64,000 nt of DNA, taken from NCBI GenBank assembly GCA_016793095.1, contig JAEUJQ010000005.1, positions 62,001 to 126,000 on the forward strand, written 5' to 3'. This document shows, in pieces, positions 26,197 to 41,527 of the stretch (position 1 is the first letter of the stretch; each line of letters begins with the position of its first letter). The notes under the pieces were generated by a model. It ran no database searches, was not told the origin of the DNA, and saw nothing but the letters and a program-made list of their open reading frames with translations. This DNA is from Myxococcaceae bacterium. Lineage in GTDB: Bacteria; Myxococcota; Myxococcia; Myxococcales; Myxococcaceae. The translations under genes were made by a program, and so were the position numbers.

Positions 26197-26224
26197 GCAA
26201 CTTGAGATGCCGTTGGACGAGAAT
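26197..26224 (+). promoter_or_regulatory. Shared locus promoter motif, copy 1
   Basis: GCAACT (26197-26202), 16 nt, GAGAAT (26219-26224), 77 nt before the gene at 26302. The same two boxes with identical spacing occur before the genes at 28757 and 41579. The -10 side reads GACGAGAA, resembling the sigma-28 -10 sequence GCCGATAA at 6 of 8 positions. Confidence 0.5.
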
Positions 26225-26301
26225 GAGAGCACAGGGCGGCGCTGGCAGGTGCCGGCGGAAGCAAGACCCTGACACTTCACGCAGCACCCTCGGAGGATTC
26301 C

Positions 26302-26835
26302 ATGGCCGTCAATCGCATTGATTCGACCCCCGCTCGCATCTCCACCAACTTCACCGTCTCCAAGCAGACCCAGGGCGTGGACTTCGGCCAGCGCATGCAG
26401 GCTGGTCTCGCCAACGCTGGAAACGCGCTCGCTTCAGGCGTCGGCCTGCTCGGCAACGCGATCCCCGGCGGCGGCATCGTCTCTGCCGCGATCTCGTCGG
26501 TCTCCAACCACATCGGCGGCCCGTCGTCGGGCGCCTACGCCTCGACGGGCATGGTGAACGTCGGCGGCGGCACCGGCATCAACACCACGGTCGGCGGCAA
26601 CACCGGCGGCCCGATGGTCGGCGGCGCGGGCCCGAGCCCCAACTTCTCGGCCGGCGTCTCGGCGAACGACGTGGGCATGGGCAACCAGGCCATCTCGGGC
26701 ATGAGCGGCGAGATGAGCAACATGCTCCGCCTGCAGTACCAGATGCAGCGCGAGAACATGACCTACACGTCCATCTCGAACGTGATGAAGGGCAAGCACG
26801 ACACCGTGAAGAACACCATCCAGAACGCGCGCTAA
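26302..26835 (+). CDS. Candidate secreted subunit with needle/rod-like C-terminus
   Basis: 177 residues, no signal peptide. Residues 1-60 are mixed and amphipathic, 60-135 very rich in Gly/Ser/Thr/Asn, and the last 40 form a helix. The end, 'SNVMKGKHDTVKNTIQNAR', lines up without gaps against the C-terminus of PrgI/MxiH needle subunits as I remember it (pattern SN..K...D.....IQN.R). Needle subunits are only about 80 residues, so this would be an extended variant; an inner-rod relative is also possible. Strong GGAGG site, own motif upstream and a hairpin downstream suggest high expression. Function is inference. Confidence 0.55.
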   Translation: MAVNRIDSTPARISTNFTVSKQTQGVDFGQRMQAGLANAGNALASGVGLLGNAIPGGGIVSAAISSVSNHIGGPSSGAYASTGMVNVGGGTGINTTVGGNTGGPMVGGAGPSPNFSAGVSANDVGMGNQAISGMSGEMSNMLRLQYQMQRENMTYTSISNVMKGKHDTVKNTIQNAR

Positions 26836-26864
26836 GCGCAGGATGATTCGAACGGCAGTCTTCG

Positions 26865-26892
26865 AAGGGCGACCGGAAACGGTCGCCCTTTG
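26865..26892 (+). terminator. Strong hairpin after the needle-like gene
   Basis: AAGGGCGACCG (26865-26875) and CGGTCGCCCTT (26880-26890) form a perfect 11-bp stem with a GAAA tetraloop, 29 nt after the stop. The T-run is short (TTTG). It could end most transcripts or protect the 3' end of a high-level mRNA. Confidence 0.7.
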
Positions 26893-26935
26893 TGCTATTC
26901 AGCGGCTCGTTCCCAACCTCGAAAGGACCCGCGTC

Positions 26936-27628
26936 ATGGCCGAGCCGAAGAGCGACATCGCCGGTAGCATCCTCCCCGTCACCAAGCAGCAGGCGATGAT
27001 CATGCTGGAGTCCGTGTACCTCTGGATGGATCTCGGCAAGTTCGATCACGCGCGAGAGCTCGCCAACGGCGCGGCGGCCCTCATGCCGAAGACGAAGCAG
27101 GTGCAGTTCGCGCTGGGCACGATCGAGTTCAACCAGCAGAAGTACGACAAGGCGCTCCAGGCCTTCCGCGCAGCCCAGCGGCTCGACCCGAAGAGCGGTC
27201 TTGCGCGCGCGCACTGTGGTGAAGCGCTGGTGTTCATGGGCAAGACGGGGGAGGCCCTCAAGGAGCTCCAGGCGGCACGAGAGCTGGAAGATGACGGCGG
27301 GGTCGCCGAGTTCGCGTTCCGCCTCACGCTCTTCGCAGGCATCAGCGACGTCGAGCGCGCGCTGAAGGAGCCGAACGAGAAGAAGCGCTCGGAGCGCTTC
27401 GACAGCGCCCTCAAGGCGTTCCAGCTCGCGGCGAAGTTCGAGCCGAAGGCTCCCGAGCCCCGGATCCGGATCGGCGAGGTCAACGTCCTGCTCGGGAAGA
27501 ACGCCGAGGCGAAGACCGAGCTCGACGCCGCCACGAAGCTCGGTCCGTCCGACGAAGAGAAGGCGATGATCGAGAAGCTGCTCGAGGTCGCGGGCGGCAA
27601 GGTGAAGGACGCACCGAAGAAGCGCTAG
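26936..27628 (+). CDS. TPR protein of the T3SS-like locus (LcrH/SycD-like)
   Basis: 230 residues with at least three TPR units ('LWMDLGKFDHARELANGAAALMP', 'GTIEFNQQKYDKALQAFRAAQRLDP', 'RIRIGEVNVLLGKNAEAKTEL'). The opening 'AMIMLESVYLWMDLGKFDHA' resembles the LcrH/SycD class of T3SS chaperones that hold translocators or needle subunits. It follows the needle-like gene, so it may be its chaperone. GAAAGGA precedes ATG 26936. No signal peptide. Confidence 0.65.
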   Translation: MAEPKSDIAGSILPVTKQQAMIMLESVYLWMDLGKFDHARELANGAAALMPKTKQVQFALGTIEFNQQKYDKALQAFRAAQRLDPKSGLARAHCGEALVFMGKTGEALKELQAARELEDDGGVAEFAFRLTLFAGISDVERALKEPNEKKRSERFDSALKAFQLAAKFEPKAPEPRIRIGEVNVLLGKNAEAKTELDAATKLGPSDEEKAMIEKLLEVAGGKVKDAPKKR

Positions 27629-27650
27629 GCTTCTTCGAAACGAGGAGCTC

Positions 27651-28061
27651 ATGTCCGTTCGAGGTGTCGGTCGCGGTGGCAAAGCGGGTGGGGCCGGGCG
27701 TGCCGGCGCCGCGGGCGGTGCGAGCGGAGCGTCGAAGGCGCAAGGGGCGTTCGGCTCGAAGGTCGATCGCACCGAGTCGCTGGTGGGCCCGTCGGGGCTC
27801 GTGGGCTCGTCGAACGTGGGCGCGACCGCCGCCACCAATCCCGTCGTCGCGCAGGCCCTCGACATCGCGCGGCAGATGAAGGCCGGGCAGATCAAGAGCC
27901 GCGACGAAGCCACCAAGAAGCTCGTCTCGGACATCCTTCGCGACAAGGTTCGCACGCAGTCCCGACAGCTCACCGAGAAGATCGTCGAGCAGCTCAAGGA
28001 CGATCCCCGCCTGGCCCAGACCCTCGAGCGCCTGTGGAACAAGGCCGAGCAAGAGGAGTAA
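27651..28061 (+). CDS. Small protein upstream of the sigma factor, possible FlgM-like anti-sigma
   Basis: 136 residues. Residues 1-65 are Gly/Ala/Ser-rich and probably disordered. The rest is helical: 'ALDIARQMKAGQIKSRDEATKKLVSDIL' then 'LTEKIVEQLKDDPRLAQTLERLW'. The block around 'QMKAGQIKSRD' is loosely like the FlgM core (I-R-N-G-x-L-K). Disordered N-terminus, size and position 7 nt upstream of a FliA-family sigma gene fit an anti-sigma factor, but sequence support is weak. It could equally be another locus-specific component. GAGGAG precedes the ATG. Confidence 0.5.
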   Translation: MSVRGVGRGGKAGGAGRAGAAGGASGASKAQGAFGSKVDRTESLVGPSGLVGSSNVGATAATNPVVAQALDIARQMKAGQIKSRDEATKKLVSDILRDKVRTQSRQLTEKIVEQLKDDPRLAQTLERLWNKAEQEE

Positions 28062-28068
28062 CCGGCCC

Positions 28069-28944
28069 TTGCCTCTCGCGGAATCCAAGGCGCAGATCCT
28101 GGAGAAGTACGGCGCCTACGTGAGGTCGCTGGCCGCCCAGGTCCGCAAGCAGTTCAACTCCCAGTTCGAGATGGAGGAGCTCGTCGCCTGGGGCCAGGTC
28201 GGTCTGCTCGAGGCCGCCGAGCGCTTCGATGCGCGGGTGGGCGCGAACTTCCTCACGTTCGCCCACTACCGGATCAAGGGAGCGATCTACGACGGTCTCC
28301 GCAAGATGGGGGTGCTGAAGGGCGGTGGGGCGGCCTCGGAGCGCGCCAACGCCTACCTGGGCAACCTCGCGGATCGTGAAGGCGGCGGGGGTGGGCTGGA
28401 GGACGAGGTCGAGCGGATCTCGAGCGCCGTCACGGGTCTGGCGATGGTGTTCGGCACCAGCCTCGATGGCGCGGAAGGTATGGGAATCTCTGATGATTCC
28501 CTTCCTCCTGACGAACGCATCCAGATGGAGCAGATGCGTCGGCGGGTTCGGTCGGCCATCGAGAAGCTACCGGAAAAAGAGCGGAAACTGCTGCAGGGCT
28601 ACTACTTTCAGAACAAGACGCTCGAGGAAGCAGGCGCGGAGATTGGACAATCCAAGTCCTGGGCGAGCCGGCTCCACGCGCGGGCGGTTGAACGGTTGAA
28701 GCAACTCCTCGAAGATGAGGACGATAACTCTACAGACGACTTGAGGAGGCACCACCATGGCGGGTCCACTGGCAGGAATTTCAGCGGCGCAAATCGCCCA
28801 GCAGAAGCTGCCCGAGCAGGGCTTGCAGCAGGCCAACAAGGCGGGCCCAAGCAAGTTCGATCAGGCGATGAAGACGCAGGGGGTCGACAAGGCCCAGAGC
28901 GCCCAGTCGGTCCAGGGCACGCAGCAGGTCCAGCACGCCGATAA
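28069..28944 (+). CDS. FliA/WhiG-family sigma factor with abnormal C-terminal tail
   Basis: Sigma region 2 is clear at 30-85 ('EMEELVAWGQVGLLEAAERFD', 'FLTFAHYRIKGAIYDGLRKMG') and region 4 at about 165-220 ('LPEKERKLLQGYYFQNKTLEEAG', 'SKSWASRLHARAVERLKQLL'); the middle region is glycine-rich. The start is TTG 28069 with AAGAGGAG 10 nt before. The normal end would be near residue 225, but the frame runs on about 66 residues, overlapping the sctI gene by 188 nt with low-complexity sequence. Either the tail is real or a one-base indel near 28700-28742 removed the stop (a TGA lies at 28742 in the next frame). It may serve the motif shared by the three subunit genes. Confidence 0.8.
   Translation: MPLAESKAQILEKYGAYVRSLAAQVRKQFNSQFEMEELVAWGQVGLLEAAERFDARVGANFLTFAHYRIKGAIYDGLRKMGVLKGGGAASERANAYLGNLADREGGGGGLEDEVERISSAVTGLAMVFGTSLDGAEGMGISDDSLPPDERIQMEQMRRRVRSAIEKLPEKERKLLQGYYFQNKTLEEAGAEIGQSKSWASRLHARAVERLKQLLEDEDDNSTDDLRRHHHGGSTGRNFSGANRPAEAARAGLAAGQQGGPKQVRSGDEDAGGRQGPERPVGPGHAAGPARR
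28701..28728 (+). promoter_or_regulatory. Shared locus promoter motif, copy 2 (inside the sigma gene)
   Basis: GCAACT (28701-28706), 16 nt, GATAAC (28723-28728), 28 nt before sctI. The -10 side reads GACGATAA, matching the sigma-28 -10 consensus GCCGATAA at 7 of 8 positions. It lies inside the region-4 coding end of the sigma gene. Confidence 0.5.
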
Positions 28945-29281
28945 GGCGCGTCAGATCGAGCAGGCGGGCAAGATCGAGAAGGGGTCGCTCAACAAGGTCT
29001 CTGACAAGCTGACCGCGAAGGGCATGGACCCTGTCGCCCAGAAGAACGAGGTCAACAAGGGCTCCAGTCTGCTGAAGGGCCTGGTGGCCAACATGGAGAA
29101 GGGCCAGGCCTCGATCGACAAGCTCATCAACGGCGGGCTCAACGGCGCCAACTTCTCCAACACCGAGATGCTGGCGATGCAGGCCGGCATGTACAAGTAC
29201 ACGCAGGAGCTGGAGCTGACCGGCAAGGTCGTCGAGAAGGCCACCAGCGGCCTGAAGGACACCCTCAAGACGCAGGTCTGA
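28757..29281 (+). CDS. sctI: T3SS inner-rod protein SctI
   Basis: 174 residues. The C-terminal 40 residues carry the inner-rod signature: 'EMLAMQAGMYKYTQELELTG', then 'KVVEKATSGLKDTLKTQV', matching the L..Q...Y...E...K.......L...Q pattern of YscI/PscI/PrgJ proteins. The N-terminal 110 residues are Gln/Lys-rich and likely flexible. Placement directly before the SctJ gene is the standard yscI-yscJ order. GAGGAGG lies 7 nt before the ATG. It has its own promoter-like motif and a terminator after it. The rod links the export gate to the needle. Confidence 0.78.
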   Translation: MAGPLAGISAAQIAQQKLPEQGLQQANKAGPSKFDQAMKTQGVDKAQSAQSVQGTQQVQHADKARQIEQAGKIEKGSLNKVSDKLTAKGMDPVAQKNEVNKGSSLLKGLVANMEKGQASIDKLINGGLNGANFSNTEMLAMQAGMYKYTQELELTGKVVEKATSGLKDTLKTQV

Positions 29282-29303
29282 GGTCGCCGTCAGCCGCCCC
29301 GAA

Positions 29304-29338
29304 GGGCAGTCACCGAGAAGGTGGCTGCCCTTTTTGTT
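29304..29338 (+). terminator. Rho-independent terminator after sctI
   Basis: GGGCAGTCACC (29304-29314), loop GAGAA, GGTGGCTGCCC (29320-29330): 11 bp with one G-T pair, followed by TTTTTGTT. A complete intrinsic terminator inside the locus, 22 nt after the sctI stop. Confidence 0.85.
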
Positions 29339-29366
29339 TCCGAGCCGTAGTAGGGTTCGCAACCCG

Positions 29367-30173
29367 ATGCCCTGCTCGGCCACCAGACTCCTCATCGCCT
29401 TCGGTCTCCTCGCGCTCACCGGCTGCACCGTCGAACTTCAGCACGACCTGACCGAGGACGATGCCAACGAGATCTACGTCGTCCTCCAGAACAACGGGAT
29501 CGGCGCGACCAAGCTCAAGGAAGAGGGAGGCAATGAGCCGCGCTACATCATCAGCGTGGGCAAGCAAGACGTCGCCGCCGCTGCCCAGTTGCTGAAGGAT
29601 CACTCCCTGCCGCGTCCCAAGGCCGACGGCCTCGCGGTCTTCAAGCGGATGAAGGGCATGATCCCGACGCAGACGGAGGAGCGGGCCATGTTCATCGAGG
29701 CCCTCGCCGGCGAGATCTCCAACGCGCTGAACCGCTACCCCGGCGTGCTCGAGGCGCGCGCCATCGTGATGATCCCCGAGGTGAACGATCTCACCCAGCC
29801 GGAGAAGCGGCCGATGCCCACCGCCTCCGTCTTCATCAAGTACACGCCGGGCACCGACGAGAAGGCGTCGATGCCCTTCAGCGTGAGCGAGGTGCAGGAG
29901 TTCGTGGCCAACTCAGTCACCGAGCTGAAGAAGGAGAACGTGAAGGTCCTCGCGACCGCGGCGAAGCCGGTCGAGGTGACGATGGACCCCGCGAAACAGC
30001 CACAGACGGTGCTTGGGCTGCGCATGGACAAGACCAGCGCCGACACCTTCAAGGTGATGGTGGCGGTGAACGCGGTCCTGTTCCTCGCGCTGGCGGGCGT
30101 CGCGGCGTTCCTCATCATCCGCAAGCCCGGCGGCAACGGCCGCCCCACTCGCAAGACGCAGCCGGAGAGCTGA
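29367..30173 (+). CDS. sctJ: T3SS inner-membrane ring lipoprotein SctJ
   Basis: 268 residues. Lipoprotein signal with lipobox 'LALTGC' (about residue 20), then the YscJ/FliF ring-building domain: 'LTEDDANEIYVVLQNNGIGA', 'GLAVFKRMKGMIPTQTEERAMFIEALAGEIS' (about 90-120), 'ARAIVMIPEV', 'TASVFIKY'. A C-terminal TM (about 235-257, 'VMVAVNAVLFLALAGVAAFLII') and short basic tail complete the SctJ plan. It forms the periplasmic face of the inner-membrane ring. Only a TAGGGT box lies between the terminator and ATG 29367. Confidence 0.9.
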   Translation: MPCSATRLLIAFGLLALTGCTVELQHDLTEDDANEIYVVLQNNGIGATKLKEEGGNEPRYIISVGKQDVAAAAQLLKDHSLPRPKADGLAVFKRMKGMIPTQTEERAMFIEALAGEISNALNRYPGVLEARAIVMIPEVNDLTQPEKRPMPTASVFIKYTPGTDEKASMPFSVSEVQEFVANSVTELKKENVKVLATAAKPVEVTMDPAKQPQTVLGLRMDKTSADTFKVMVAVNAVLFLALAGVAAFLIIRKPGGNGRPTRKTQPES

Positions 30174-30199
30174 GCCCCGGCGATCGAAAGCGGTGACGA

Positions 30200-31657
30200 G
30201 TGGAACAGTACTTCGCGTCCCTCTCGAAGCGGCAGACGATGCTGCTGCTCACGGCGCTGGCTTTCGGCGGCTCCGACGCGATCGGCTCGTTCGAGCACCT
30301 GGCTCCCGAAGAGGAGGAGCTGCTCAAGCACCGCGCGCAGGGCCTGCTGCAGATCCCCCGAGACAAGCGCATTCCCCTGGTGATCCAGGAGATCAAGCGC
30401 ATCGTGATCGCCCGCCGGCGCCAGCTCGCGAACGCCGACCCGAAGCGGCTCGCTGCGTTGCTCTCCCGTGAGCGAGGTGCGCTGGTCGAGGTCGTGCTCC
30501 GCGCGTTGCCGAGCGAGCTCGCTGATGCCTGTCGCGCCGAGCTGGGGCCGCGCCCGACCATCAAGCTGGCTCGCGAGGTGCGCCCCGACATTCTCTCGAT
30601 CGTTCGTTGGCGGCTCGAAGAAGGGCTCAAGCAGGGGGCGCCGCAGGTCGGCACCTTCCGCTTCACCGATCTGCTGATGATGCCGCAGCGCGAGGTGCTC
30701 TCGATCTGCGATCGCATGGGCGCGCGGGTGCTGGCGACCGCGGTCGCAGGCCTGGGCGACGCCGATCGCGAGGCGTTCTTCTCGAAGTTGCCGCCCGATC
30801 AGCGCGCGTTGGCGCACAAGGCGGCGGAGGCCGGAAAGGCACGGCGGCTGTCCGAGGGTGACGCGAAGACGGTGCTCGAGATCCACGGCGCCCTCGAGAC
30901 GCCCTCGGCGGGCATGCGGTCGGCCGGCGCGCAACGGGTGATACGGGCGTCGGTCGCCCAGGGCCCCGAGTTCGCGCAACGGCTGGTGGAGCGGCACTTG
31001 ACGGGCGAGCTCGGCAAGGTGCTCCAGCGATGGCTGAAGGAAGAGAAGAGCAAGGCAGTGAAGGGCGACGGAGGGCGGCTCGACATCGTCGAGCAGATGG
31101 AGCGGCTGGCCCAGAAGGGCGTCATCGATCGCCCGCTCCGTCTGCCGCCCCCGATGAAGGCGCCTGAGCTCGCGCCCGTTCAGGCGCCGCCCGGTCGGCG
31201 GAGCGGGTCGCTGAACCAGGTGCCTCCTCAGTTCCGGAACCAGCCGGTTCAGGAGCGGCCTCCCGAGCGGAGCCGGGTGGGGCCGGCACCCGAGCGAAGC
31301 CGGGTGGAGCCCGCGCCTGAACGGAGCCGGGTGGAGGCCGCGCCAGGCCAGCCGCGGCGTGACCCGATCGCCGAGCGCAACGCCCGGCGTGCCGGTGTCG
31401 CCTCTTCGCGGGCCGTTCCGCCTGGCGCCCAGCTCAAGGGCTCGAGCGATCCGTCAGCGTCCGGCGTGCGGCGCATCATGCGTGATGGAAAGCCACTTCC
31501 GAGGGATCCCACCGAGACCGTTGCACCCCAGCCGAAGCCCCGCCGCGCGATGACGTCGCCGGCCGTTCAGGAGCTGCCTCGCCGGAAGGAGCGGCCCGCC
31601 GACGGATCGTCCGACCCGAAGGGCCCCAACCGTGGATCGGGCGGACGTTCGGGCTAG
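30200..31657 (+). CDS. FliG-like protein at the SctK position
   Basis: 485 residues, cytosolic. Residues about 80-230 read like FliG middle and C domains: 'LAALLSRERGALVEVVLRALPSELA', 'FRFTDLLMMPQREVLSICDRMG', 'LGDADREAFFSKLPPDQRA', compared with the FliG pattern F-x-F-x-D-L ... L. A second weak copy may lie at 235-300. The C-terminal 160 residues are Pro/Arg-rich and disordered with a three-fold repeat. In known injectisomes this site between SctJ and SctL holds SctK; FliG-like proteins are flagellar rotor parts. So this is either a divergent adaptor between ring and SctQ or a FliG relic. Confidence 0.65.
   Translation: MEQYFASLSKRQTMLLLTALAFGGSDAIGSFEHLAPEEEELLKHRAQGLLQIPRDKRIPLVIQEIKRIVIARRRQLANADPKRLAALLSRERGALVEVVLRALPSELADACRAELGPRPTIKLAREVRPDILSIVRWRLEEGLKQGAPQVGTFRFTDLLMMPQREVLSICDRMGARVLATAVAGLGDADREAFFSKLPPDQRALAHKAAEAGKARRLSEGDAKTVLEIHGALETPSAGMRSAGAQRVIRASVAQGPEFAQRLVERHLTGELGKVLQRWLKEEKSKAVKGDGGRLDIVEQMERLAQKGVIDRPLRLPPPMKAPELAPVQAPPGRRSGSLNQVPPQFRNQPVQERPPERSRVGPAPERSRVEPAPERSRVEAAPGQPRRDPIAERNARRAGVASSRAVPPGAQLKGSSDPSASGVRRIMRDGKPLPRDPTETVAPQPKPRRAMTSPAVQELPRRKERPADGSSDPKGPNRGSGGRSG
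31262..31342 (+). repeat. Three tandem 27-nt repeats
   Basis: Three in-frame 27-nt units (31262, 31289, 31316) encode PERSRVGPA, PERSRVEPA and PERSRVEAA in the disordered tail of the FliG-like protein. Units differ by only a few bases, suggesting recent copy-number change. Confidence 0.85.
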
Positions 31658-31669
31658 ACTGGGCCCTGA

Positions 31670-32374
31670 ATGGAAGACGAACGTCGGCCGGCCCCCTCCT
31701 CGAGGGTGCTGGGCAAAGTCATCAAGAGCGGCGATGCGGGTGACGGGCCAGCCCCCGAAGCCAAGCCCATGCTGCCTCCGCCCCGTCGCGGGGGCGTCGT
31801 CAACGCCGAGGAGTTCGAAGCGATGACGGCTGCCAAACAGATCATCGTCGACGCCCAGAAGAAGGCCGACGAGATCAAGGCCGAGGCGCTGCGCTTCAAG
31901 GAAGAGGTCTTCGCGAAGGCGCGCGAGGAGGCGAAGGCTGACGTGCAGGCCCGGGCCGCCGAGGAGCTGGCGCGCGCGAAGATGCAGGCCGGGCAGATCG
32001 TCGCCGAGGCCGAGAAGGACGTGCTCGAGCTGGCCTTGAAGATGGCTGCCAAGATCATCGGCCGCGACCTCGAGCGCAATCAAGACGTGGTGCTCGAGGT
32101 CTGTGCGACGGCCATCGAGGCGGCGCGCGGCTCGAAGGCGATGATCCTCAAGGTGCACCCCGAAGACGGCAAGGTGCTGCGCGAGAAGCGCCCCCGCCTC
32201 ATGGAGCTGATCGGCCGCGCCGTGGACATCGCCATTCGCGACGACGCCGAGGTCGAGCGCGGGGGCTGCGTCATCCAGACCGAGTTCGGCGTCATCGATG
32301 GGCAGATCCGCACGCAGTTCGAGATGCTGCGCAACGTGCTGATGCCCGACGGCCAGAAGAAGGAGTCGAAGTAG
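31670..32374 (+). CDS. sctL: T3SS stator protein SctL (FliH family)
   Basis: 234 residues. A proline-rich N-terminus is followed by a long Ala/Glu/Lys coiled coil (about 50-110, 'KKADEIKAEALRFKEEVFAK') and the compact C-domain 'ALKMAAKIIGRDLERNQDVVLEV', 'GCVIQTEFGVIDGQIRTQFEML', as in FliH/YscL/V-ATPase E. SctL dimers hold the ATPase and tie it to SctQ. It ends 3 nt before sctN, the conserved order. Confidence 0.88.
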   Translation: MEDERRPAPSSRVLGKVIKSGDAGDGPAPEAKPMLPPPRRGGVVNAEEFEAMTAAKQIIVDAQKKADEIKAEALRFKEEVFAKAREEAKADVQARAAEELARAKMQAGQIVAEAEKDVLELALKMAAKIIGRDLERNQDVVLEVCATAIEAARGSKAMILKVHPEDGKVLREKRPRLMELIGRAVDIAIRDDAEVERGGCVIQTEFGVIDGQIRTQFEMLRNVLMPDGQKKESK

Positions 32375-32377
32375 GCC

Positions 32378-33700
32378 ATGGCGATCGATCTGCGCCGCTA
32401 CCACGAGCTCTTGAAGACGGCCCAGACCGTGCGGGTGCGGGGCCGGGTGACCGAGCTGACGGGCCTGGTGATCAAGGCCGCGGTGCCCAACGTGCGCGTC
32501 GGCGAGGTGTGCATCATCAAGCGCGGGCGCGAGTCGGTGCGCGCCGAGGTGGTGGGGTTTCAGGGCGAGCAGGTCATGCTCATGCCGCTCGGTGAGCTCT
32601 CGGGCATCGGCCCGGACAGCGAGGTGATCCCCACGGGACGGCCGCTCACGATCCGCGCCGGTGACGGCCTGCTCGGGCGAGTCTTGAACGGGCTCGGCGA
32701 GCCGATCGACGGCAAGCCGCTCCCCGCAGAGGGCATGCAGGACTGGGCGGTGGATCGCGACTGCCCCGACCCGTTCAAGCGCATGCGCATCACCCGGCCG
32801 CTCCCGCTCGGTGTCCGGTGCATCGACGGGCTCTTGACCGTGGGCGAGGGGCAGCGCATCGGCCTGTTCGCCGGTTCCGGCGTCGGCAAGTCCACGCTCA
32901 TGGGGCAGATCGCCCGGAACACCGCCGCCGAGCTGTCGGTCATCGCGCTGATCGGCGAGCGTGGCCGCGAGGTGCTCGAGTTCATCGAAGACGCGCTCGG
33001 CCACGAGGGCATGAAGCGCTCGGTGGTGGTCTGCGCCACGTCCGACCAGCCGTCCCTGGTGCGTCTGCGCGCCGGCTACGTCGCCACCTCGATCGCCGAG
33101 TACTTCCGCGAGCGCGGCGGCAACGTGCTCTTCATGCTCGACACCGTGACGCGTCTCGCCCGCGCCCAGCGCGAGATCGGCCTCGCCATCGGTGAGCCCC
33201 CGGCGCGCCAGGGCTACCCGCCCAGCGTCTTCTCGATGCTGCCGCGCATGCTCGAGCGCACCGGCAACAGCGACAAGGGCCGCTGCACCGCCATCTACAC
33301 CTGCCTCGTGGCCGGCGGTGACATGGAAGAGCCGATCGCCGACGAAGTGCGCGGTATTCTCGACGGCCACTTCATCTTGAACCGCGCCATCGGCGAGCGG
33401 AACCAGTGGCCCGCGATGGACGTGCTCGCCTCGCTCTCACGTGTGATGAGCCAGATCGCGACCAAGGAGCACAAGAAGGCAGCGGGCCTGCTGCGCCAGA
33501 CCTTGTCCACCTACGAGAAGCAGCGCGACCTGATCCTCCTCGGCGCCTACCAGTACGGCACCGACCCGCGCACCGACTACGCCATCGACAAGTACGACCA
33601 GATCATCGGGTACCTGAAGCAGGACACCCACGACAGCACCCCGTTCGACGAGACGGTCCAGCGGCTGGTGGACATGTTCGCTGACGCGCCCACCACCTGA
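32378..33700 (+). CDS. sctN: T3SS ATPase SctN (FliI family)
   Basis: 440 residues, the usual length. Walker A 'GSGVGKST' (166-173) in 'GLFAGSGVGKSTLMGQI', catalytic glutamate in 'ALIGERGREVLEF', Walker B 'VLFMLDTVTRLARAQREIGL', and 'GEPPARQGYPPSVFSMLP' are diagnostic of the FliI/YscN ATPases rather than F1. The hexamer strips chaperones and unfolds substrates at the base of the export gate. ATG 32378 follows sctL by 3 nt. Confidence 0.95.
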   Translation: MAIDLRRYHELLKTAQTVRVRGRVTELTGLVIKAAVPNVRVGEVCIIKRGRESVRAEVVGFQGEQVMLMPLGELSGIGPDSEVIPTGRPLTIRAGDGLLGRVLNGLGEPIDGKPLPAEGMQDWAVDRDCPDPFKRMRITRPLPLGVRCIDGLLTVGEGQRIGLFAGSGVGKSTLMGQIARNTAAELSVIALIGERGREVLEFIEDALGHEGMKRSVVVCATSDQPSLVRLRAGYVATSIAEYFRERGGNVLFMLDTVTRLARAQREIGLAIGEPPARQGYPPSVFSMLPRMLERTGNSDKGRCTAIYTCLVAGGDMEEPIADEVRGILDGHFILNRAIGERNQWPAMDVLASLSRVMSQIATKEHKKAAGLLRQTLSTYEKQRDLILLGAYQYGTDPRTDYAIDKYDQIIGYLKQDTHDSTPFDETVQRLVDMFADAPTT

Positions 33701-33714
33701 CGCGAAGGGGTGCT

Positions 33715-33730: not shown

Positions 33731-33731
33731 T

Positions 33732-34241
33732 ATGCCCCCGTATCGACTCCAGGCGCTGCTCGACATCCGCATCAAGGCCGAGGAGGACGCGAAGGACGCG
33801 TTCTCGGCGGCCGTCAAGGCGGCCGAGGCCGAGAAGAAGAAGCTGGTCACCATGCAGCAGGACCTGGAGAAGAAGAAGGTCGATCGCAAGGCGAAGGTGC
33901 AGGCCTTCCTCGAAGACGTCACGAAGAAGGGCGGCGGCATCGCGGGGTTCCAGCAGATGAACCGGTTCGAGGAGCGCCTCAAAGATGACGAGGCGCAGCT
34001 GGCGCTGGAGATCGAACGACAGAAAGAAGCGGTCACCCAGGCCGAGAAGGTGGTCGAGCAGCGACGCCAGGAGATGGCGGAGGCCACCATCGAGAAGAAG
34101 GCCATCGAGAAGCACAAGGACACCTGGAAGAAGCAGGTGCGCTACGAGCTGCAGCAGAAGGAAGAGATGAACCAGGAGGAGATCGGCAACACGCTCCACC
34201 TTGCCCGCGTACGCGCCGCGGAGAAGAAGAAGTCCTCATGA
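33732..34241 (+). CDS. sctO: T3SS stalk protein SctO (FliJ/YscO-like)
   Basis: 169 residues, almost wholly a two-helix antiparallel coiled coil. The start 'PPYRLQALLDIRIKAEEDAKD' is the FliJ opening (Y-R-L-Q-x-L-L-x-x-R). FliJ/SctO is the gamma-like axle inside the SctN hexamer and couples ATP use to the export gate. Position directly after sctN is conserved. It overlaps the SctP-like gene by 4 nt (ATGA). Confidence 0.82.
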   Translation: MPPYRLQALLDIRIKAEEDAKDAFSAAVKAAEAEKKKLVTMQQDLEKKKVDRKAKVQAFLEDVTKKGGGIAGFQQMNRFEERLKDDEAQLALEIERQKEAVTQAEKVVEQRRQEMAEATIEKKAIEKHKDTWKKQVRYELQQKEEMNQEEIGNTLHLARVRAAEKKKSS

Positions 34242-35239: not shown

Positions 35240-36669
35240 GCGAGAAGGGCGACCGGACGATGATGATCGACGTCTCGAAGATCCGGCAGAAGCCGCCGGC
35301 TTCGGGTACTCAGACGAAGCGGCCGGCGGCGCCCCCACCGCCGCCTCCTCCGGCGCGCGCTCCCGCGAGAGACTGGCAGCCGTTCTCGTTCGCGAACCTC
35401 GAGAAGCTGACGAAGACCCACGGGCGGCTCGCGCGCAACCTCGAGTGGATGTTGCCGAACGTGCGCTCCACCGGCGAGGTGAGCGAGTCGGTCAAGAAGC
35501 GGCTGTCGGAGATGCTGGACGAGAAGATCTCGCTCCAGGCCGAGTACCTGCACTTCATTCACCCGTCGAAGCTGCGCCGCTACGTGGGCGATCCCACCTT
35601 CCTCGGCGTGCTGGCGCCGATCCCCAACAAGGCGCGAGGCCTGCTCGAGGTGGACATCGGGCTCGCGCACTGGGCCATCGACACGCTGCTCGGCGGTACC
35701 GGCGAGGCGGTCGGCTTGCGGCCGCTGACGGACATCGAAGAAGGCGTGATGACCTTCGTCGTCCTCGAGACGCTCAAGGCGCTGGCGCCGAGCCTCGACA
35801 GCGCGCTGCCCAAGCTGCGCCTCGAGACCATCGCGCCCTCGCTCGACGCCGCGCTGGGCGTGCTGCAGGAAGAGGAGACGCTGGCCGTCGTCCAGCTGAA
35901 GGCGATCTTCGGTGGCCACACGGGCTACGTGCGCCTCTTCATCCCCGAGAGCGTGCTGGCGGTGGCCGAGCCCGCGCCCGACGCTCCGGTGCGCCGCCAA
36001 CGCCGCGCCGCCGACGCGGTCGCGCACGCGACGCGGCTGTCGAACGTGAAGGTGTGGCTGCGCGCCGAGATCGGTCAGGTGGAGATCTCGGCGGGGGACC
36101 TCGCGCAGCTCCGCGAGCGCGACGTGGTGCTCGTCGATGGCCTGTCGGCGCGACCTGACAAGCACGAGGGCGGCACGGCGCGGCTCAAGCTCGGCCTCGG
36201 GCGGACGGGCTTCGTGGCGGCCGACATCGCCATCGACTCCGATCGCTACGTCGCCACGGTGACGGGGATCCACGTTGGAGAGCCCCCACCCCCGGGCCAG
36301 CCGATCGAAGGTGGCGAAGAGCAGCCCGCTGCGGAAGCGGCCGAGGGCGAGCCCCAGGAGCCCCCGGCCCTGGGCGAAGGGCCCGACGAGTCAACCAACC
36401 CGGGAGCCGAGAGGGCGAACATGGAAGAAGGCCAGGCAGAGGGGGCCGATCTGCTCAACGACGTGCCGTTGCAGATCGCGGTGGAGGTGGGGCGGCTGCC
36501 GATCTCCGCCGAGGACGTGGTGGGGCTCAAGGTGGGCCACGTGTTCGATCTCAACCGACAGGTGGGCGAGCCGCTCGATCTGTCGGTGAACGGCAAGGTG
36601 GTCGCGCGGGGCGAGCTGGTCGAGATCGAGGGCAACCTCGGCATTCGCATCGTCTCGCTCGCGGGCTGA
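35236..36669 (+). CDS. sctQ: T3SS C-ring/sorting-platform protein SctQ, FliM-FliN-like
   Basis: 477 residues, GTG start overlapping the previous TGA. After a basic proline-rich N-tail (PPPPPPP at 33-39) comes a FliM-like middle domain with 'LLGGTGEAVGLRPLTDIEEGV' at about 151-171, which is the FliM GG...R.LT.IE signature. Two SpoA domains follow, about 268-345 and 405-477 ('VPLQIAVEVGRLPISAEDV', 'LVEIEGNLGIRIVSL'). It thus joins FliM-like and FliN-like parts in one chain, forming the cytosolic platform that receives chaperone-substrate complexes. Retention of the FliM-type middle motif is unusual for injectisome SctQ. Confidence 0.88.
   Translation: MSEKGDRTMMIDVSKIRQKPPASGTQTKRPAAPPPPPPPARAPARDWQPFSFANLEKLTKTHGRLARNLEWMLPNVRSTGEVSESVKKRLSEMLDEKISLQAEYLHFIHPSKLRRYVGDPTFLGVLAPIPNKARGLLEVDIGLAHWAIDTLLGGTGEAVGLRPLTDIEEGVMTFVVLETLKALAPSLDSALPKLRLETIAPSLDAALGVLQEEETLAVVQLKAIFGGHTGYVRLFIPESVLAVAEPAPDAPVRRQRRAADAVAHATRLSNVKVWLRAEIGQVEISAGDLAQLRERDVVLVDGLSARPDKHEGGTARLKLGLGRTGFVAADIAIDSDRYVATVTGIHVGEPPPPGQPIEGGEEQPAAEAAEGEPQEPPALGEGPDESTNPGAERANMEEGQAEGADLLNDVPLQIAVEVGRLPISAEDVVGLKVGHVFDLNRQVGEPLDLSVNGKVVARGELVEIEGNLGIRIVSLAG
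36409..36669 (+). promoter_or_regulatory. Internal ribosome site and start for a short SctQ-C product
   Basis: GAGAGGG (36409-36415) lies 5 nt before an in-frame ATG at 36421 (codon 396 of sctQ). Initiation there would give an 82-residue protein holding only the second SpoA domain. Known SctQ genes of Yersinia, Salmonella and Shigella make such a short form, which assembles with full-length SctQ. Confidence 0.55.
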
Positions 36670-36670
36670 C

Positions 36671-37222
36671 ATGGCGCGCTGGCTGTCGCTCACTCTGGCG
36701 TTGCAGGCGGTGATCGCCTTCGCCGATGGCGGTTCGCCGACCCAGGACGCCGGCGGCGTTGACGTGGCGGCGCTGATCCAGCCGGGGCTCGCCGAGGAGC
36801 CGCAGATCCCCGTGTCGGAGCCGCCTGAGCTGCTCAAGGACACCGAGCTCGACCTCGGGTGGTCGCTGGTGAAGACCTTCGTGGTGCTGGGGCTGGTGGT
36901 CGCGATCGCCTGGCTCACGCTCAACGTCGGGTTGCGGAAGCTGCTCGGGGTGGGGGCGCCGGGCCGGCTCGGCATCATCTCGGTGCTCGAGCGGGTGCCG
37001 CTCGATCAGAAGCGCACGCTGTATGTGGTGCGCGCCGGAGACGAGGTGTTGCTGCTGGGGGCCAGCGATCTGTCGGTGAACTTCCTCTCGCGGCTCGACC
37101 CGAAGCTCGCCGAGGCGGCGACGCCCAGACCTGCCGCCACGCCCGGCCCCGTCACGCTCAGCCCGTTCTTGCAGAAACTGCTGGGGAAGAAGGATGCTCC
37201 GCCTCCTCCTCCAGCCACCTGA
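36671..37222 (+). CDS. fliO: FliO-like export-gate assembly protein
   Basis: 183 residues. Signal-like N-terminus, a periplasmic stretch, one TM (about 62-85, 'SLVKTFVVLGLVVAIAWLTLNVG'), then the FliO cytosolic domain: 'LGIISVLERVPLDQKRTLYVV', 'AGDEVLLLGASDLSVNFLSRL'. FliO helps assemble the FliP (SctR) ring and is normally found in flagellar, not injectisome, loci. It sits immediately before sctR as in fliO-fliP operons, overlapping no gene but ending 13 nt before ATG 37236. Confidence 0.85.
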   Translation: MARWLSLTLALQAVIAFADGGSPTQDAGGVDVAALIQPGLAEEPQIPVSEPPELLKDTELDLGWSLVKTFVVLGLVVAIAWLTLNVGLRKLLGVGAPGRLGIISVLERVPLDQKRTLYVVRAGDEVLLLGASDLSVNFLSRLDPKLAEAATPRPAATPGPVTLSPFLQKLLGKKDAPPPPPAT

Positions 37223-37235
37223 CTGGACTCTTCGC

Positions 37236-38018
37236 ATGACGCGACGCCTGCCCTCCTCGATTCTCTTCGCTTCGGTGCTGCTGGCGCCGGCCCTCGCGTT
37301 CGCGAAGAAGGGCACCGACGTCGTCCAGGCAACTGGCGCGACCGAGGTGTCGTTCGCGAACCGGCCGCTGGTGCTGATGATCACCCTCGGCGCGCTCGGG
37401 TTCGCGCCCTTCGTGCTGATGATGGTGACGAGCTTCGTGAAGATCTCGGTGGTGCTGTCGGTGGTGCGCTCGGCGCTCGGGACTCAGCAGATCCCGCCGA
37501 CGCAGGTGATCACGGGCCTCGCCATCATCCTCACCGTCTACATCATGGCGCCCGTCGGTCAGGAGATGTTCAAGGCCGCCGACACCGGCGAGGTGGCGGA
37601 GGGACGAGGGCTGCTCGACGCGAAGAACGTGGACACCCTGCTCAACGCGGCGAACCGGGCGAAAGAGCCCCTGCGGAACTTCCTCATCAAGAAGGTCACG
37701 CGGAAGGATCGCACGCTGTTCTACGGCCTCGCGCTCAAGCTCCGGAAGGCGGAGGACCGCGGGGGGATCACCGAGAACGACTTCCTCATCCTCGTCCCCG
37801 CGTTCGTGGTCTCGGAGCTGAAGGAGGCCTTTCAGATCGGCTTCCTGCTCTTCGTGCCCTTCCTCGTCATCGACATGGTGGTGGCGAACATTTTGCTCGC
37901 GCTTGGCATGCAGATGTTGTCACCGACCACCATCTCGATGCCGTTCAAGCTGCTGCTCTTCGTGCTCGTGGACGGGTGGTACCTGATCGCGAAGGGCCTG
38001 GTCGTCGGCTACCTGTGA
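37236..38018 (+). CDS. sctR: Export-gate protein SctR (FliP family)
   Basis: 260 residues from ATG 37236, with a cleavable-looking signal peptide (MTRRLPSSILFASVLLAPALAFA), a FliP-like trait, since injectisome SctR usually lacks one. Core motifs: 'FAPFVLMMVTSFVKISVVLSVVRSALGTQQIPP' (about 45-80), 'ILVPAFVVSELKEAFQIGFLLFVPFLVIDMVV' and 'MQMLSPTTISMPFKLLLFVLVDGW'. Five copies form the helical export gate with SctS and SctT. Part of an unbroken fliO-R-S-T-U run. Confidence 0.93.
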   Translation: MTRRLPSSILFASVLLAPALAFAKKGTDVVQATGATEVSFANRPLVLMITLGALGFAPFVLMMVTSFVKISVVLSVVRSALGTQQIPPTQVITGLAIILTVYIMAPVGQEMFKAADTGEVAEGRGLLDAKNVDTLLNAANRAKEPLRNFLIKKVTRKDRTLFYGLALKLRKAEDRGGITENDFLILVPAFVVSELKEAFQIGFLLFVPFLVIDMVVANILLALGMQMLSPTTISMPFKLLLFVLVDGWYLIAKGLVVGYL

Positions 38019-38028
38019 AGGAGGCAAC

Positions 38029-38295
38029 GTGCACCAACTCACCTATGTCACGCAGCAGGCGCTGATCCTGGTGCTGGTGGCCTCCGGACCGCCCATCATC
38101 ATGAGCCTGATCGTCGGGTTCGCGGTCTCCGTGTTTCAGGCGGCGACGCAGATCCAGGAACAGACGCTCTCGTTCGCGCCCAAGCTCGTCATCGTCTTCG
38201 GCGTGCTGGGCCTCGCCGGCCCGTGGCTCGGCTATCAGCTGCTGCGCTTCACCTTCAACATCTTCGACCGCTTCCCGGCGCTGATCGCGCACTAG
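38029..38295 (+). CDS. sctS: Export-gate protein SctS (FliQ family)
   Basis: 88 residues, GTG start with AGGAGG before it. Two TM helices ('ALILVLVASGPPIIMSLIVGFAVSVFQAATQI', about 12-43, and 'LVIVFGVLGLAGPWLGYQLLRF') separated by 'QEQTLSFAPK', the FliQ hallmark. It forms the gate with SctR and SctT. The stop is 2 nt before sctT. Confidence 0.93.
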   Translation: MHQLTYVTQQALILVLVASGPPIIMSLIVGFAVSVFQAATQIQEQTLSFAPKLVIVFGVLGLAGPWLGYQLLRFTFNIFDRFPALIAH

Positions 38296-38297
38296 CC

Positions 38298-39131
38298 ATG
38301 GACAACATGCAGGACCTGCTCCTCGAGGTGAGGAACCAGCTCGGCATTCAGCACGACCTCACGCAGGTGATGCTCGGGTTCGCGCTGCTGATGGGGCGGG
38401 TCATGCCGGTGATCATGCTCACGCCGTTCCTTGGCGGAGAGAGCGTGCCGTCGGAGGTGAGGCTCGGCCTCGGGGTGCTGATGGGCCTCGTGCTCTACCC
38501 GCTGTTGATGGAGCAGACCCAGGCGGTGCCCGTGTCTCCGCTCATCTTCATCGGGCTCATGCTGAAGGAGCTGTTCATCGGGCTGGCGCTGACGATGTGC
38601 GTGAACATCATCTTCGACGCGGCGAACGTCGCCGGTGGGCTGGTGGACATCATGTCGGGCACCAACCAGGCGCAGCTCATGGTGCCGCAGATCGGCTCGC
38701 AGGTGACGCTGTTCGCGAACCTGAACCTGCAGCTCACCGTCGTCACCTTCCTCACGCTCAATGGCCACCACCTGGTGATCCAGTCGTTCGCCGAGAGCCT
38801 CTCGCTCATCCGCCTCGATCAGCTGCCCAACTTCGGGCGCGGGCTGTGGCCCTTCTTCGACACGCTCATGCGGATCTCCGGTGACATGCTGCGCATCGCC
38901 CTCGCGCTGGCGTCGCCGGTGTTGCTCGCGACCTTCCTGACGGATCTCGCGCTGGGCATGATCAACCGCGTCGCGCCCCAGGTGCAGGTCTTCTTCGTCG
39001 CCATGCAGATCAAGCCCGCGGTCACCATTCTGATCATGTTCACGGCGATGCACCTCATCCTGAACCGCACGGTTGATGAGTTCGGGGTCATGTTCCGCTG
39101 GCTGAAGACGGCCATGCTCTTGTTGTCGTGA
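38298..39131 (+). CDS. sctT: Export-gate protein SctT (FliR family)
   Basis: 277 residues with about seven hydrophobic segments. Family marks: 'FALLMGRVMPVIMLTPFLGGESVPSEVRLGLG' (about 28-60), 'LMLKELFIGLALTMCVNIIFDAANVAGGLVD', 'TFLTLNGHHLVIQSFAESL', and 'LASPVLLATFLTDLALGMINRVAPQVQVF'. One copy caps the SctR-SctS spiral. The ATG at 38298 follows the SctS TAG directly. Confidence 0.93.
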   Translation: MDNMQDLLLEVRNQLGIQHDLTQVMLGFALLMGRVMPVIMLTPFLGGESVPSEVRLGLGVLMGLVLYPLLMEQTQAVPVSPLIFIGLMLKELFIGLALTMCVNIIFDAANVAGGLVDIMSGTNQAQLMVPQIGSQVTLFANLNLQLTVVTFLTLNGHHLVIQSFAESLSLIRLDQLPNFGRGLWPFFDTLMRISGDMLRIALALASPVLLATFLTDLALGMINRVAPQVQVFFVAMQIKPAVTILIMFTAMHLILNRTVDEFGVMFRWLKTAMLLLS

Positions 39132-39144
39132 TCGGACCGGCGCC

Positions 39145-40212
39145 ATGTCCGACGACAAGACGGAAGAACCCACCCAGAAGAAGCTCGACGACGCCCGCAA
39201 AGAGGGGAACGTCTGGAAGTCGAAGGACCTGTCGGGGGTGATGGCCTTCGCGGTGGCGATGGGCGTGGTGAAGGCGACGTGGAGCACCGTGGAGGAGCGC
39301 GTCACCATGCTCTTTCACTTCACGTTCGATCACATCGCCCACCCGCAGGCGCTCAACGTGGCGATCGCGCACATGCTCTCGCTCGCTCTGACGACGCTGC
39401 TGGTGCTGTGCGTGCCGATCGCGTTCGCCGCCGCGGTCACCGGCGGAATGCTCGAGTTCCTGCAGGTCGGCCCGCTGCTGGCCCTCAAGGCGTTGATGCC
39501 GAAGTTCTCGAAGCTGAACCCGCTCGCCGGTATCAAGAACATGTTCAGCAAGAAGCAGATCATCGAGCTCGCCAAGTCGATGGCGAAGCTCGGGGTCACC
39601 GGGTACGTCGTCTACGGTGTCGTGCGCGATGCCATGGCGCTGGTCGTCGCGACCATCGGCGGCGACGCGAACATGACGATGACGGTGCTGGGCGAGCTGG
39701 TCTCACGCGTCGTGATCAAGGTGACGATGCTCTTCATCGGCTTCGCCATCTTCGACGTGTGGTGGCAGCACAAGTCGTACATGAAGGATCAGATGATGTC
39801 GAAGGAGGACGTGAAGAAGGAATACAAGGAGAGCGAGGGCGATCCGCACCACAAGGCGCACCGCAAGCAGATGCACCAGGAGATCATGGAGGGCGCGCAG
39901 ATGGAGGCGGTGCAGGGCGCCGACGTGATCGTGACGAACCCCGATCACGTCGCGGTGGCGCTCAAGTACGACCGTGATCGGGACGGCGCTCCGCGGGTGA
40001 TTGCGAAGGGGCTCGACTTCAAGGCCGAGAAGATCAAGGCGATCGCGCGCGAGGCCGACGTGCCCATGCTGCGGAACATTCCCCTCGCGCACGCGCTGCT
40101 GCGCACGGACGTCAACCAGGAGATCCCTGAGGAGCTGTACGACGCGGTCGCCGAGGTCCTCAACTTCGTCTACCAGCTCAAGAACCCGCCCCCGGCGCCC
40201 GCCCGCGCTTAA
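39145..40212 (+). CDS. sctU: Export switch protein SctU (FlhB family), NPDH variant
   Basis: 355 residues. The start 'DDKTEEPTQKKLDDARKEGNV' is classic FlhB/YscU. Four TMs (about 30-205) precede the cytosolic switch domain. The autocleavage site is NPDH (265-268) in place of NPTH; Asn and Pro, which carry out the chemistry, are kept. Downstream 'VAVALKYDRDRDGAPRVIAKG' and 'EIPEELYDAVAEVLNFVYQL' are normal. Cleavage there switches export from early to late substrates. The next gene is a copy of this C-domain. Confidence 0.93.
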   Translation: MSDDKTEEPTQKKLDDARKEGNVWKSKDLSGVMAFAVAMGVVKATWSTVEERVTMLFHFTFDHIAHPQALNVAIAHMLSLALTTLLVLCVPIAFAAAVTGGMLEFLQVGPLLALKALMPKFSKLNPLAGIKNMFSKKQIIELAKSMAKLGVTGYVVYGVVRDAMALVVATIGGDANMTMTVLGELVSRVVIKVTMLFIGFAIFDVWWQHKSYMKDQMMSKEDVKKEYKESEGDPHHKAHRKQMHQEIMEGAQMEAVQGADVIVTNPDHVAVALKYDRDRDGAPRVIAKGLDFKAEKIKAIAREADVPMLRNIPLAHALLRTDVNQEIPEELYDAVAEVLNFVYQLKNPPPAPARA

Positions 40213-40244
40213 GCATTCAGGCCCGGCGATGGTAGGGTAGGGGC

Positions 40245-40520
40245 GTGGCCGAAGATCCCGACATGGCGATCGCCATCAAGTACGATCGCGAGAAGGACGG
40301 CGCCCCTCGCGTCATCGCGAAGGGCATGCGCCTCAAGGCCGAGAAGATCCGTGAGATCGCGAAGGCCGCTGGAGTGCCCTTCATGAAGAACACCACCCTC
40401 GCGGCCGCCCTCTACCGGGTGGACGTCGGCCAGGAGATCCCCGAGGAGCTGTACGACGCGGTCGCTGAGGTCTTGAACTTCGTGTACGCGCTGCAGCAGG
40501 AGCAGCAGGGGAAGAAGTGA
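40245..40520 (+). CDS. Free-standing SctU/FlhB C-domain paralogue (FlhX-like)
   Basis: 91 residues, GTG start. It matches the SctU C-domain over its length ('MAIAIKYDREKDGAPRVIAKG', 'EIPEELYDAVAEVLNFVYALQ') but starts right at the cleavage point with 'EDPDM' where SctU has 'TNPDH', so the cleaving Asn is absent. Small FlhB C-domain homologues (FlhX/YlqH) can replace the cleaved FlhB tail. It is very likely a local duplication of the 3' end of sctU. A TAGGGT box sits 6 nt before the GTG. Confidence 0.85.
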   Translation: MAEDPDMAIAIKYDREKDGAPRVIAKGMRLKAEKIREIAKAAGVPFMKNTTLAAALYRVDVGQEIPEELYDAVAEVLNFVYALQQEQQGKK

Positions 40521-40540
40521 CTCACCGGGGAGCCTGACGC

Positions 40541-41014
40541 ATGGCGAAGGTTGGACAACAGCCCAAAGCGCCGTTGTGGCCGTGGGGTGGCCCGCGGTCG
40601 GTTCGAGACAAGCTCGTCGACAAGACGCAGGTCGCCTCGAAGGCGCGGAAGAAGGGCGACCCCAAGAACCCGGCGCTGGCCTCCGCTGCGCTGCTCGACT
40701 TCATCGCGCCGGCGCACTCTGCCGAGGAGCTGCGCCTGCCGATGCCGCCCATGCCTTCGGGCCACGGCGGCGACACCGAGGGCTTCCTCGATCGTCCCTA
40801 CGTCTCGACCGTCGCCGAGCGCATGAGCGAGTACCGTCAGGCCGAGCTCGAGCGGGGAATGCAGGTGATCCGCGCCGCGCCCGAGCGCGTCGAGCGCCTC
40901 CGCTCGCTGCTGCAGCGAGAAGCCCAGATGCTCAACCTGGTGAACACCGTCGGCGACGCGATGGGCGAGGTGGAGAGGCGCCGCCGCGAAGAACAAGCCG
41001 AAGAGGCCTACTGA
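40541..41014 (+). CDS. Unknown helical protein of the T3SS-like locus
   Basis: 157 residues, unrecognised. A basic N-terminus ('KLVDKTQVASKARKKGDP') and a proline-rich middle ('LRLPMPPMPSGHGG') lead to a helical C-terminus ('VAERMSEYRQAELERGMQ', 'VNTVGDAMGEVERRRREEQAEE'). No signal or TM. It overlaps no gene and is 2 nt from the next ATG. It could be a gatekeeper, chaperone or secreted regulator; nothing decides. Confidence 0.6.
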   Translation: MAKVGQQPKAPLWPWGGPRSVRDKLVDKTQVASKARKKGDPKNPALASAALLDFIAPAHSAEELRLPMPPMPSGHGGDTEGFLDRPYVSTVAERMSEYRQAELERGMQVIRAAPERVERLRSLLQREAQMLNLVNTVGDAMGEVERRRREEQAEEAY

Positions 41015-41016
41015 TC

Positions 41017-41478
41017 ATGCCCCCGCCGCAGAACGATCAGCAGCTCCCCGCGCGGCTGCAGAAGTGGGCCGAGGGCAAGGCCACGCTCAAGGACGTGCGC
41101 GGGTACTCGGACGAGGAGCTCTATTCCATCGCCCGCATGGGGTATTTCTTCTTCTACCAGGGGAAGATCGAAGAAGCGCGGACCATCTTCCAGGGGCTGT
41201 ACGCGGTCAATCCCCTCGACCCCTATTTTGCAAAGGCGCTTGGCGTTGTGGAGATGGCGGCGGGCAACGCAGCTGGCGCCCTCGCCGCGTACGACGTCTG
41301 TCTCAAACTTTCCCCTCAAGATTCAGCCGCTTACGTTGGTCGAGCGGAGGTGAAGGTGGCCCAGGGGCAACGCGGCGGAGCGGTTGACGATCTCCGCCGT
41401 GCGGCTCAGCTCGTGGACGGCGATGATCCCCTGAAGGACAAGATCGGCGCGCTCTTACAGCGGCTCTCCAGAAGGTAA
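41017..41478 (+). CDS. LcrH/SycD-family TPR chaperone
   Basis: 153 residues with three TPRs in the LcrH/SycD arrangement: 'IARMGYFFFYQGKIEEARTIF', 'YAVNPLDPYFAKALGVVEMA', 'AGALAAYDVCLKLSPQDSAAY'. 'G-x-x-x-F-Y-x-G-K-x-x-x-A' and 'P-x-D-P-Y-F' are the class II T3SS chaperone marks. These bind the two translocator proteins in the cytosol. It sits 100 nt before the candidate secreted gene at 41579, the expected neighbour of a substrate. Confidence 0.8.
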   Translation: MPPPQNDQQLPARLQKWAEGKATLKDVRGYSDEELYSIARMGYFFFYQGKIEEARTIFQGLYAVNPLDPYFAKALGVVEMAAGNAAGALAAYDVCLKLSPQDSAAYVGRAEVKVAQGQRGGAVDDLRRAAQLVDGDDPLKDKIGALLQRLSRR

Positions 41479-41499
41479 GAAAGAAGACTGTTCGATCAC

Positions 41500-41527
41500 G
41501 CAACTCAGAAGTGCGGGTCGAGATAAT
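41500..41527 (+). promoter_or_regulatory. Shared locus promoter motif, copy 3
   Basis: GCAACT (41500-41505), 16 nt, GATAAT (41522-41527), 51 nt before the gene at 41579, in an unusually AT-rich gap. Same boxes and spacing as at 26197 and 28701. Confidence 0.55.

Follow-up and report, generated by a model that had tools for sequence, protein, structure and literature searches.

What is the role of a short spaced motif that precedes three genes of a myxobacterial secretion locus? The question is raised by a 64,000-nucleotide stretch of a Myxococcaceae bacterium (GCA_016793095.1, contig JAEUJQ010000005.1, positions 62,001 to 126,000; hereafter the window), which carries a non-flagellar type III secretion system (T3SS), its SctN and SctV proteins both exceeding curated cut-offs (Table 1). 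The motif, GCAACT-N16-GAKAAY, has three exact sites on the forward strand of the window, 77 bp before the start of a needle-like gene (26302), 28 bp before that of the inner rod gene sctI (28757) and 51 bp before that of a small gene at 41579. The original prediction had proposed that these sites represent a dedicated promoter class for exported subunits, served by the locus's own sigma factor of the FliA family. Our comparative analysis indicates that, probably, a promoter class of the form G(C/A)AACT-N15/16-CGA(T/G)AA(T/C), belonging to the locus sigma factor, drives not only T3SS-exported subunits but also scattered genes for effector-like proteins.

The coordinates, the exact GCAACT box and the identical N16 spacing of the three sites are all as first described, and each site does lie upstream of its gene, although the one before sctI falls within the 3' end of the sigma factor open reading frame (ORF) and is not intergenic. 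The window holds no further N16 match (dinucleotide shuffles predict 0.04), and the total stays at three when the spacer is relaxed to N14-18. The whole genome (8.81 Mb, G000) contains four exact N16 sites and no match to the control, here and below the reversed pattern, in which composition effects are not wholly preserved. The fourth site lies on another contig (G000:C6:91882-91909), 41 bp before an unlinked small gene whose product (MAFIKKIGSAFKK...) begins like that of the 41579 gene (MAFLNKIGSFIKP...), and it is the first out-of-sample test of the motif, with a positive outcome. A one-mismatch scan of the same genome for extra sites gave background level (31 vs 35 control matches). An N17 site before a kinase-like gene (G000:C90:68026) was set aside as probable chance.

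Sixty-four related SctN loci, mostly myxobacterial, were compared, and the 160 bp that precede each homologous gene were scored against the consensus. As the original prediction had led one to expect, the motif was recovered before 34/35 homologues of the needle-like gene, all 11 homologues of the 41579 gene and 16 of the 39 sctI homologues, against none of 916 regions upstream of 23 other locus genes. The same was seen for a family of 72-aa needle-like genes that were picked by protein homology alone, where G(C/A)AAC(T/A)-N15-GATAAY was present upstream of 15/15 copies. The sctI promoter is limited to certain clades and missing in most genera; in the Myxococcus-type clade a Gln residue encoded at the site is replaced by Glu, and the site is lost. 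Among the relatives displayed, all five with Gln at this residue encode it by CAA, which accounts for only 3.7% of the Gln codons of the locus, and the retention of this rare codon argues for selection on the DNA at the sctI site, inside the sigma ORF.

Scanning of related genomes likewise placed the motif far above chance where the sigma factor is present. Across 94 Myxococcaceae genomes there were 804 motif matches against 59 control matches, of which 800 and 55, respectively, fell in the 87 genomes with the locus FliA-type sigma factor, whereas the seven family genomes without it, a second and natural control, gave four of each. In the wider class, outside the family, only two genomes were sigma-positive and both were motif-positive (8 and 3 vs 0 control matches), while 39 sigma-negative outgroup genomes had 16 motif and 11 control matches, 15 of the 16 being GAGAAY, not GATAAT. 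With a background of ~0.6 control matches per genome, part of each genome's sites is background; the genome-wide pattern also misses the GAAACT and GCAACC variants present at the locus, so regulon sizes are lower bounds, and many of the genomes are draft assemblies in which the regulon is sampled, not catalogued in full. Three genomes of 2.1-2.7 Mb (G083, G084, G085) have kept the sigma factor; each has 6-11 motif sites, in which the -35 box reads GCAACTTT.

The anatomy of the motif resembles that of a sigma-28 promoter, the consensus of which is TAAAGTTT-N11-GCCGATAA (PMC2859248). When GCAACTYY-N13-CGATAAT is aligned to this consensus the spacing and the -10 box are equal and the -35 box carries G/C changes. 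The -10 box agrees with GCCGATAA, as CGATAAT or near variants, and a spacer scan from N10 to N22 before CGATAAY placed 68/76 matches at 15 or 16, which equals the sigma-28 spacing or exceeds it by a single base. Alignment of 142 sites also revealed signal beyond the search pattern, namely A or C directly 5' of the -35 box, a preference for C before GATAAT and an A seven bases past the -10 box, at the expected start point; downstream ORF starts lie mostly 30-80 bp from the motif. The likeness to sigma-28 promoters that had first been noticed is thus borne out by the -10 box and the spacing but not by the -35 letters, and because of this difference we name the motif sigma-28-like, not canonical. 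The canonical sigma-28 pattern, sought as a contrast set in eight genomes, gave no matches.

The best relatives of the locus sigma factor in the PDB are FliA and WhiG. Against TIGR02479 it scores 110.9 bits, under the trusted cut-off of 189.6, and we therefore regard it as a divergent FliA relative, not a certified member. In six Myxococcaceae genomes of other genera (G003, G017, G037, G042, G058, G061) the locus sigma factor is the top FliA/WhiG-family match, above RpoD-like and weaker matches, and no flagellar-type FliA exceeds the cut-off. The window's genome has a second FliA-type sigma factor, a flagellar-type fliA at G000:C39:8501-9124, which adjoins flhF- and fleN-like genes. The original prediction had extended to a flagellar-style late-gene circuit, and in this respect it fared less well. 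The locus yielded no recognisable FlgM-like protein, the 27651 protein showed no FlgM similarity in Pfam and PDB profile searches and is unsupported as a FlgM-like anti-sigma factor, and PF04316 (FlgM) had no match in the window's genome (some relatives do have one). A secretion-coupled, FlgM-like checkpoint is possible but unsupported. The core proposal, that exported subunits have a sigma-28-like promoter class of their own linked to the locus sigma factor, is strongly supported by conservation, enrichment, spacing and co-occurrence, and was too narrow, because most members of the class are unlinked candidate effectors.

These members were characterized by reading the downstream genes at 167 unique sites, whose products fall into 37 protein clusters under simple BLAST linkage. 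A good ORF start within 130 bp was found at 126/167 motif sites compared to 9/26 background sites (Fisher p 1e-4). Pfam searches of the downstream proteins returned SLT transglycosylase domains with LysM or PG_binding_1, together with domains of the Amidase_2, NlpC/P60, CHAP-like and phage-lysozyme types; lipase and peptidase C39 were matched weakly. The searches also returned the T3SS-translocator domains HrpK1 and NolX, carried for example by L191, a product from the G083-G085 group. Sec-like hydrophobic starts were present in only three of the 37 cluster representatives and in none of the 12 hydrolase-cluster members checked. When three-residue patterns were enumerated over residues 1-100, D.FE came out as the most enriched (9 vs 0.18 expected). 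D.F[ED] is present in 12/37 clusters, where shuffles predict 0.44, and in 1.1% of background ORFs; its median position is residue 49. Downstream proteins from outside the family were read with the pattern already known, and 6/18 of them carry it (binomial 3e-8, taking the background rate). We propose this N-terminal DxF[ED] as a candidate sorting or secretion signal, and the lack of a Sec signal, the common N-terminal motif and the common promoter point indirectly to the unlinked products as putative T3SS effectors. A fuller form, [KSRV]D[GSTV]F[ED]x[GA] at about residues 35-65, is visible in otherwise unrelated proteins (e.g. L220, L223, L236, L252, L262). Among other downstream proteins, L142 (G011:C120) has a NuiA-like domain (Pfam), and L249/L260 (G127) and L253 (G126) have calpain-like and phosphatase-like stretches, respectively, both recognised by eye only.

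The T3SS* of Myxococcus xanthus (mxan_2434-2464) is required for prey lysis and has been published as needleless, with effectors that are only 'potential' (PMC12075869, PMC10849154); lysis depends on T3SS*, and the Kil system kills the same prey without it (PMC12075869). Our data bear on the needle as well as the effectors. The ~72-aa helical protein mentioned above is encoded in 1-3 copies at the sctV end of relatives' loci (L020, L021, L022, L031, L044, L045, L047, L051, L052, L056; e.g. L051:20145-21274). Four of 11 members match PF09392 (best E 6.8e-5), and the family's best PDB profile match is to 7y6c_F (E 0.0014); the MxiH and PrgI needles come next, with weak matches (E 0.16-1.4). Its AlphaFold model is a helical hairpin, for which Foldseek was uninformative (MxiH, 6rwy_L, only at E 2.8). 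The family profile of the 26302 protein also matches 7y6c_F (E 0.011), a chain annotated in the PDB as needle protein co-chaperone; our reading of the sequence of this 43-residue chain is that it is the needle itself. The C-termini of the 26302 and 41579 proteins align with the 72-aa family and with each other; the structure model of the 26302 protein is of low confidence (predicted local distance difference test score, pLDDT, 50), and a Pfam search with the 41579 protein gave no match. Because of the needle likeness of these three proteins the 'needleless' label deserves re-examination, and the predatory T3SS* may have a needle after all.

Could the motif have arisen by chance, the pattern having been composed after three sites had been seen? 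It was indeed fitted to those sites, and one-mismatch sites are at background, but the out-of-sample matches in the window's own genome, the 94 family genomes and other families, the confinement of conservation to orthologous genes, and the excess over control in genomes that played no part in defining the pattern render this explanation practically negligible. The flagellar FliA of the window's genome might read the promoters in place of the locus sigma factor, given that it is present and that the -10 box is of the sigma-28 type. Myxococcus, Corallococcus-type and Archangium-type genomes, however, lack such a FliA yet have many sites, and G104, which has a flagellar FliA and lacks the locus sigma factor, has no motif match, which makes flagellar FliA a very improbable reader.

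Several points weigh against assigning the motif to the locus sigma factor as a promoter of T3SS cargo. The -35 box is G(C/A)AAC(T/C) where sigma-28 promoters have TAAA(GTTT); one genome (G127, assembly 86% complete) has nine motif matches against one control match with the sigma factor undetected, and two others (G044, G048) have the sigma factor and no N16 site, both carrying N17 sites of the GCGATAAT type; and for roughly one in four of the sites read, no good ORF start lies within 130 bp. Motif, spacing, conservation, sigma co-occurrence and downstream gene features are all derived from DNA sequence, on which the whole case rests, and from them we infer promoter activity, recognition by the sigma factor and secretion. 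Because the sigma factor goes hand in hand with the T3SS across genomes, phyletic data cannot distinguish it from another regulator linked to the locus, and an activator or a different sigma factor might read the motif, the FliA-type sigma factor having other targets. The departure of the -35 box from sigma-28 and the slight resemblance of GCAACT to the -35 elements of extracytoplasmic function (ECF) promoters or hrp boxes would suit such a regulator, while two boxes at -35/-10 spacing, a sigma-28 -10 box and a start-point signal point to a sigma promoter, and the sigma gene is located inside the locus; we consider another regulator unlikely. It is also conceivable that the promoter class is real but that its unlinked products are not T3SS substrates, being instead stress or envelope proteins that use another exporter or act within the cell. 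Some downstream proteins do have lipoprotein or Sec-like starts. Against this stand the co-regulation of the unlinked genes with the needle and rod genes, as predicted from the common promoter, the absence of Sec signals in hydrolases that target the periplasm, the HrpK1/NolX domains and the common DxF[ED], so that we hold this alternative to be doubtful, albeit with an appreciable chance.

In the mechanism that we favour, the locus sigma factor would direct RNA polymerase to the motif promoters of T3SS cargo genes, which inside the locus would be those of the needle-like subunits, plus the inner rod in some clades, and outside it several to ~15 scattered effector-like genes per genome. The cargo would include peptidoglycan hydrolases and lipase-like, protease-like and translocator-like proteins that lack Sec signals and in many cases bear the proposed DxF[ED] signal. 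The motif-free core machine would be controlled separately from the exported subunits and effectors, and the regulon would supply the predatory T3SS* with lytic cargo; T3SS*-dependent lysis of prey (PMC12075869) fits cargo of hydrolases and lipases. That the FliA-family sigma factor, the promoter and DxF[ED] define a T3SS* arsenal of non-Sec hydrolases, lipases and proteases, which lyses prey via a needle-bearing system, seems to us rather likely. No earlier description of the regulon was found in a literature search of the papers available. A promoter that marks the cargo would make the questions of effectors and needle directly testable, would yield a testable list of candidate prey-lysing weapons so far unknown and suggests that substrates may be sorted by a short sequence signal.

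The remaining features of the locus are collected in Table 1. No stop codon ends the sigma ORF ahead of the sctI start, and the ORF extends 188 bp into sctI in another frame (28757-28944). A small conserved gene at 25917-26183, just 5' of the needle-like gene, has 11 invariant columns across 20 relatives; profile searches gave no family match and no convincing PDB match for its product, and a role as needle chaperone is a guess.

Table 1. Promoter sites and genes of the T3SS locus, in window coordinates.
Feature	Coordinates	Strand	Evidence
Predicted promoter of needle-like gene; sigma-28-like, -35 GCAACT, -10 CGAGAAT	26197..26224	+	Exact motif; above-threshold match in 34/35 homologous upstream regions
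Needle-like exported subunit gene (putative), 177 aa, conserved helical C-terminus	26302..26835	+	Family profile, C-terminal alignment
136-aa protein gene immediately 5' of sigma gene	27651..28061	+	Anti-sigma candidate, FlgM profile search negative
FliA/WhiG-family sigma factor gene, overlaps sctI in other frame	28069..28944	+	Pfam sigma regions 2 and 4
Predicted promoter of sctI, sigma-28-like, within sigma ORF 3' end	28701..28728	+	Exact motif; rare CAA codon kept; 16/39 relatives
sctI-like inner rod gene	28757..29281	+	Weak PF17001 match, E 0.0097, under cut-off
sctN ATPase gene, contrast gene	32378..33700	+	TIGR02546 628.3 bits vs cut-off 604.75; motif upstream 0/61
Predicted promoter of 41579 gene, sigma-28-like, -10 GAGATAAT	41500..41527	+	Exact motif; 11/11 homologous upstream regions
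Small exported-subunit candidate, 220 aa, amphipathic N-terminus, needle-like C-terminus	41579..42241	+	C-terminal alignment
sctV export gate gene, contrast gene	43700..45832	+	TIGR01399 810.7 bits vs cut-off 692.25; motif upstream 0/7

Three known systems invite comparison. The M. xanthus T3SS* is the same kind of locus in the same family, and in contrast to its published description, the present analysis yields candidates for needle subunits and for an effector regulon. The flagellar sigma-28 class III regulon is similar in its -10 box, its spacing, its FliA-family sigma factor and its exported subunits as targets, but differs in that the -35 box here is G(C/A)AAC(T/C), the targets belong to a non-flagellar T3SS and the locus shows no recognisable FlgM. 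HrpL, the regulator behind the third system, is an ECF sigma factor. As with HrpL and the hrp box, one sigma-type promoter appears to mark T3SS genes together with scattered effectors; in Pseudomonas syringae, hrp boxes (ggaacc...ccac) precede new effectors, allowing effectors to be discovered by their promoters (PMC3136466). Unlike in the HrpL system, the locus sigma factor is FliA/WhiG-like, the -10 box is CGATAAT and the hosts are predators of bacteria, and neither the ECF type of sigma factor nor the GGAACC-N15/16-CCAC box is seen in the myxobacterial sigma factor and motif. By this analysis the regulon appears to work like HrpL regulation without being a member of it and, if true, would give the hrp box a counterpart of the sigma-28 type.

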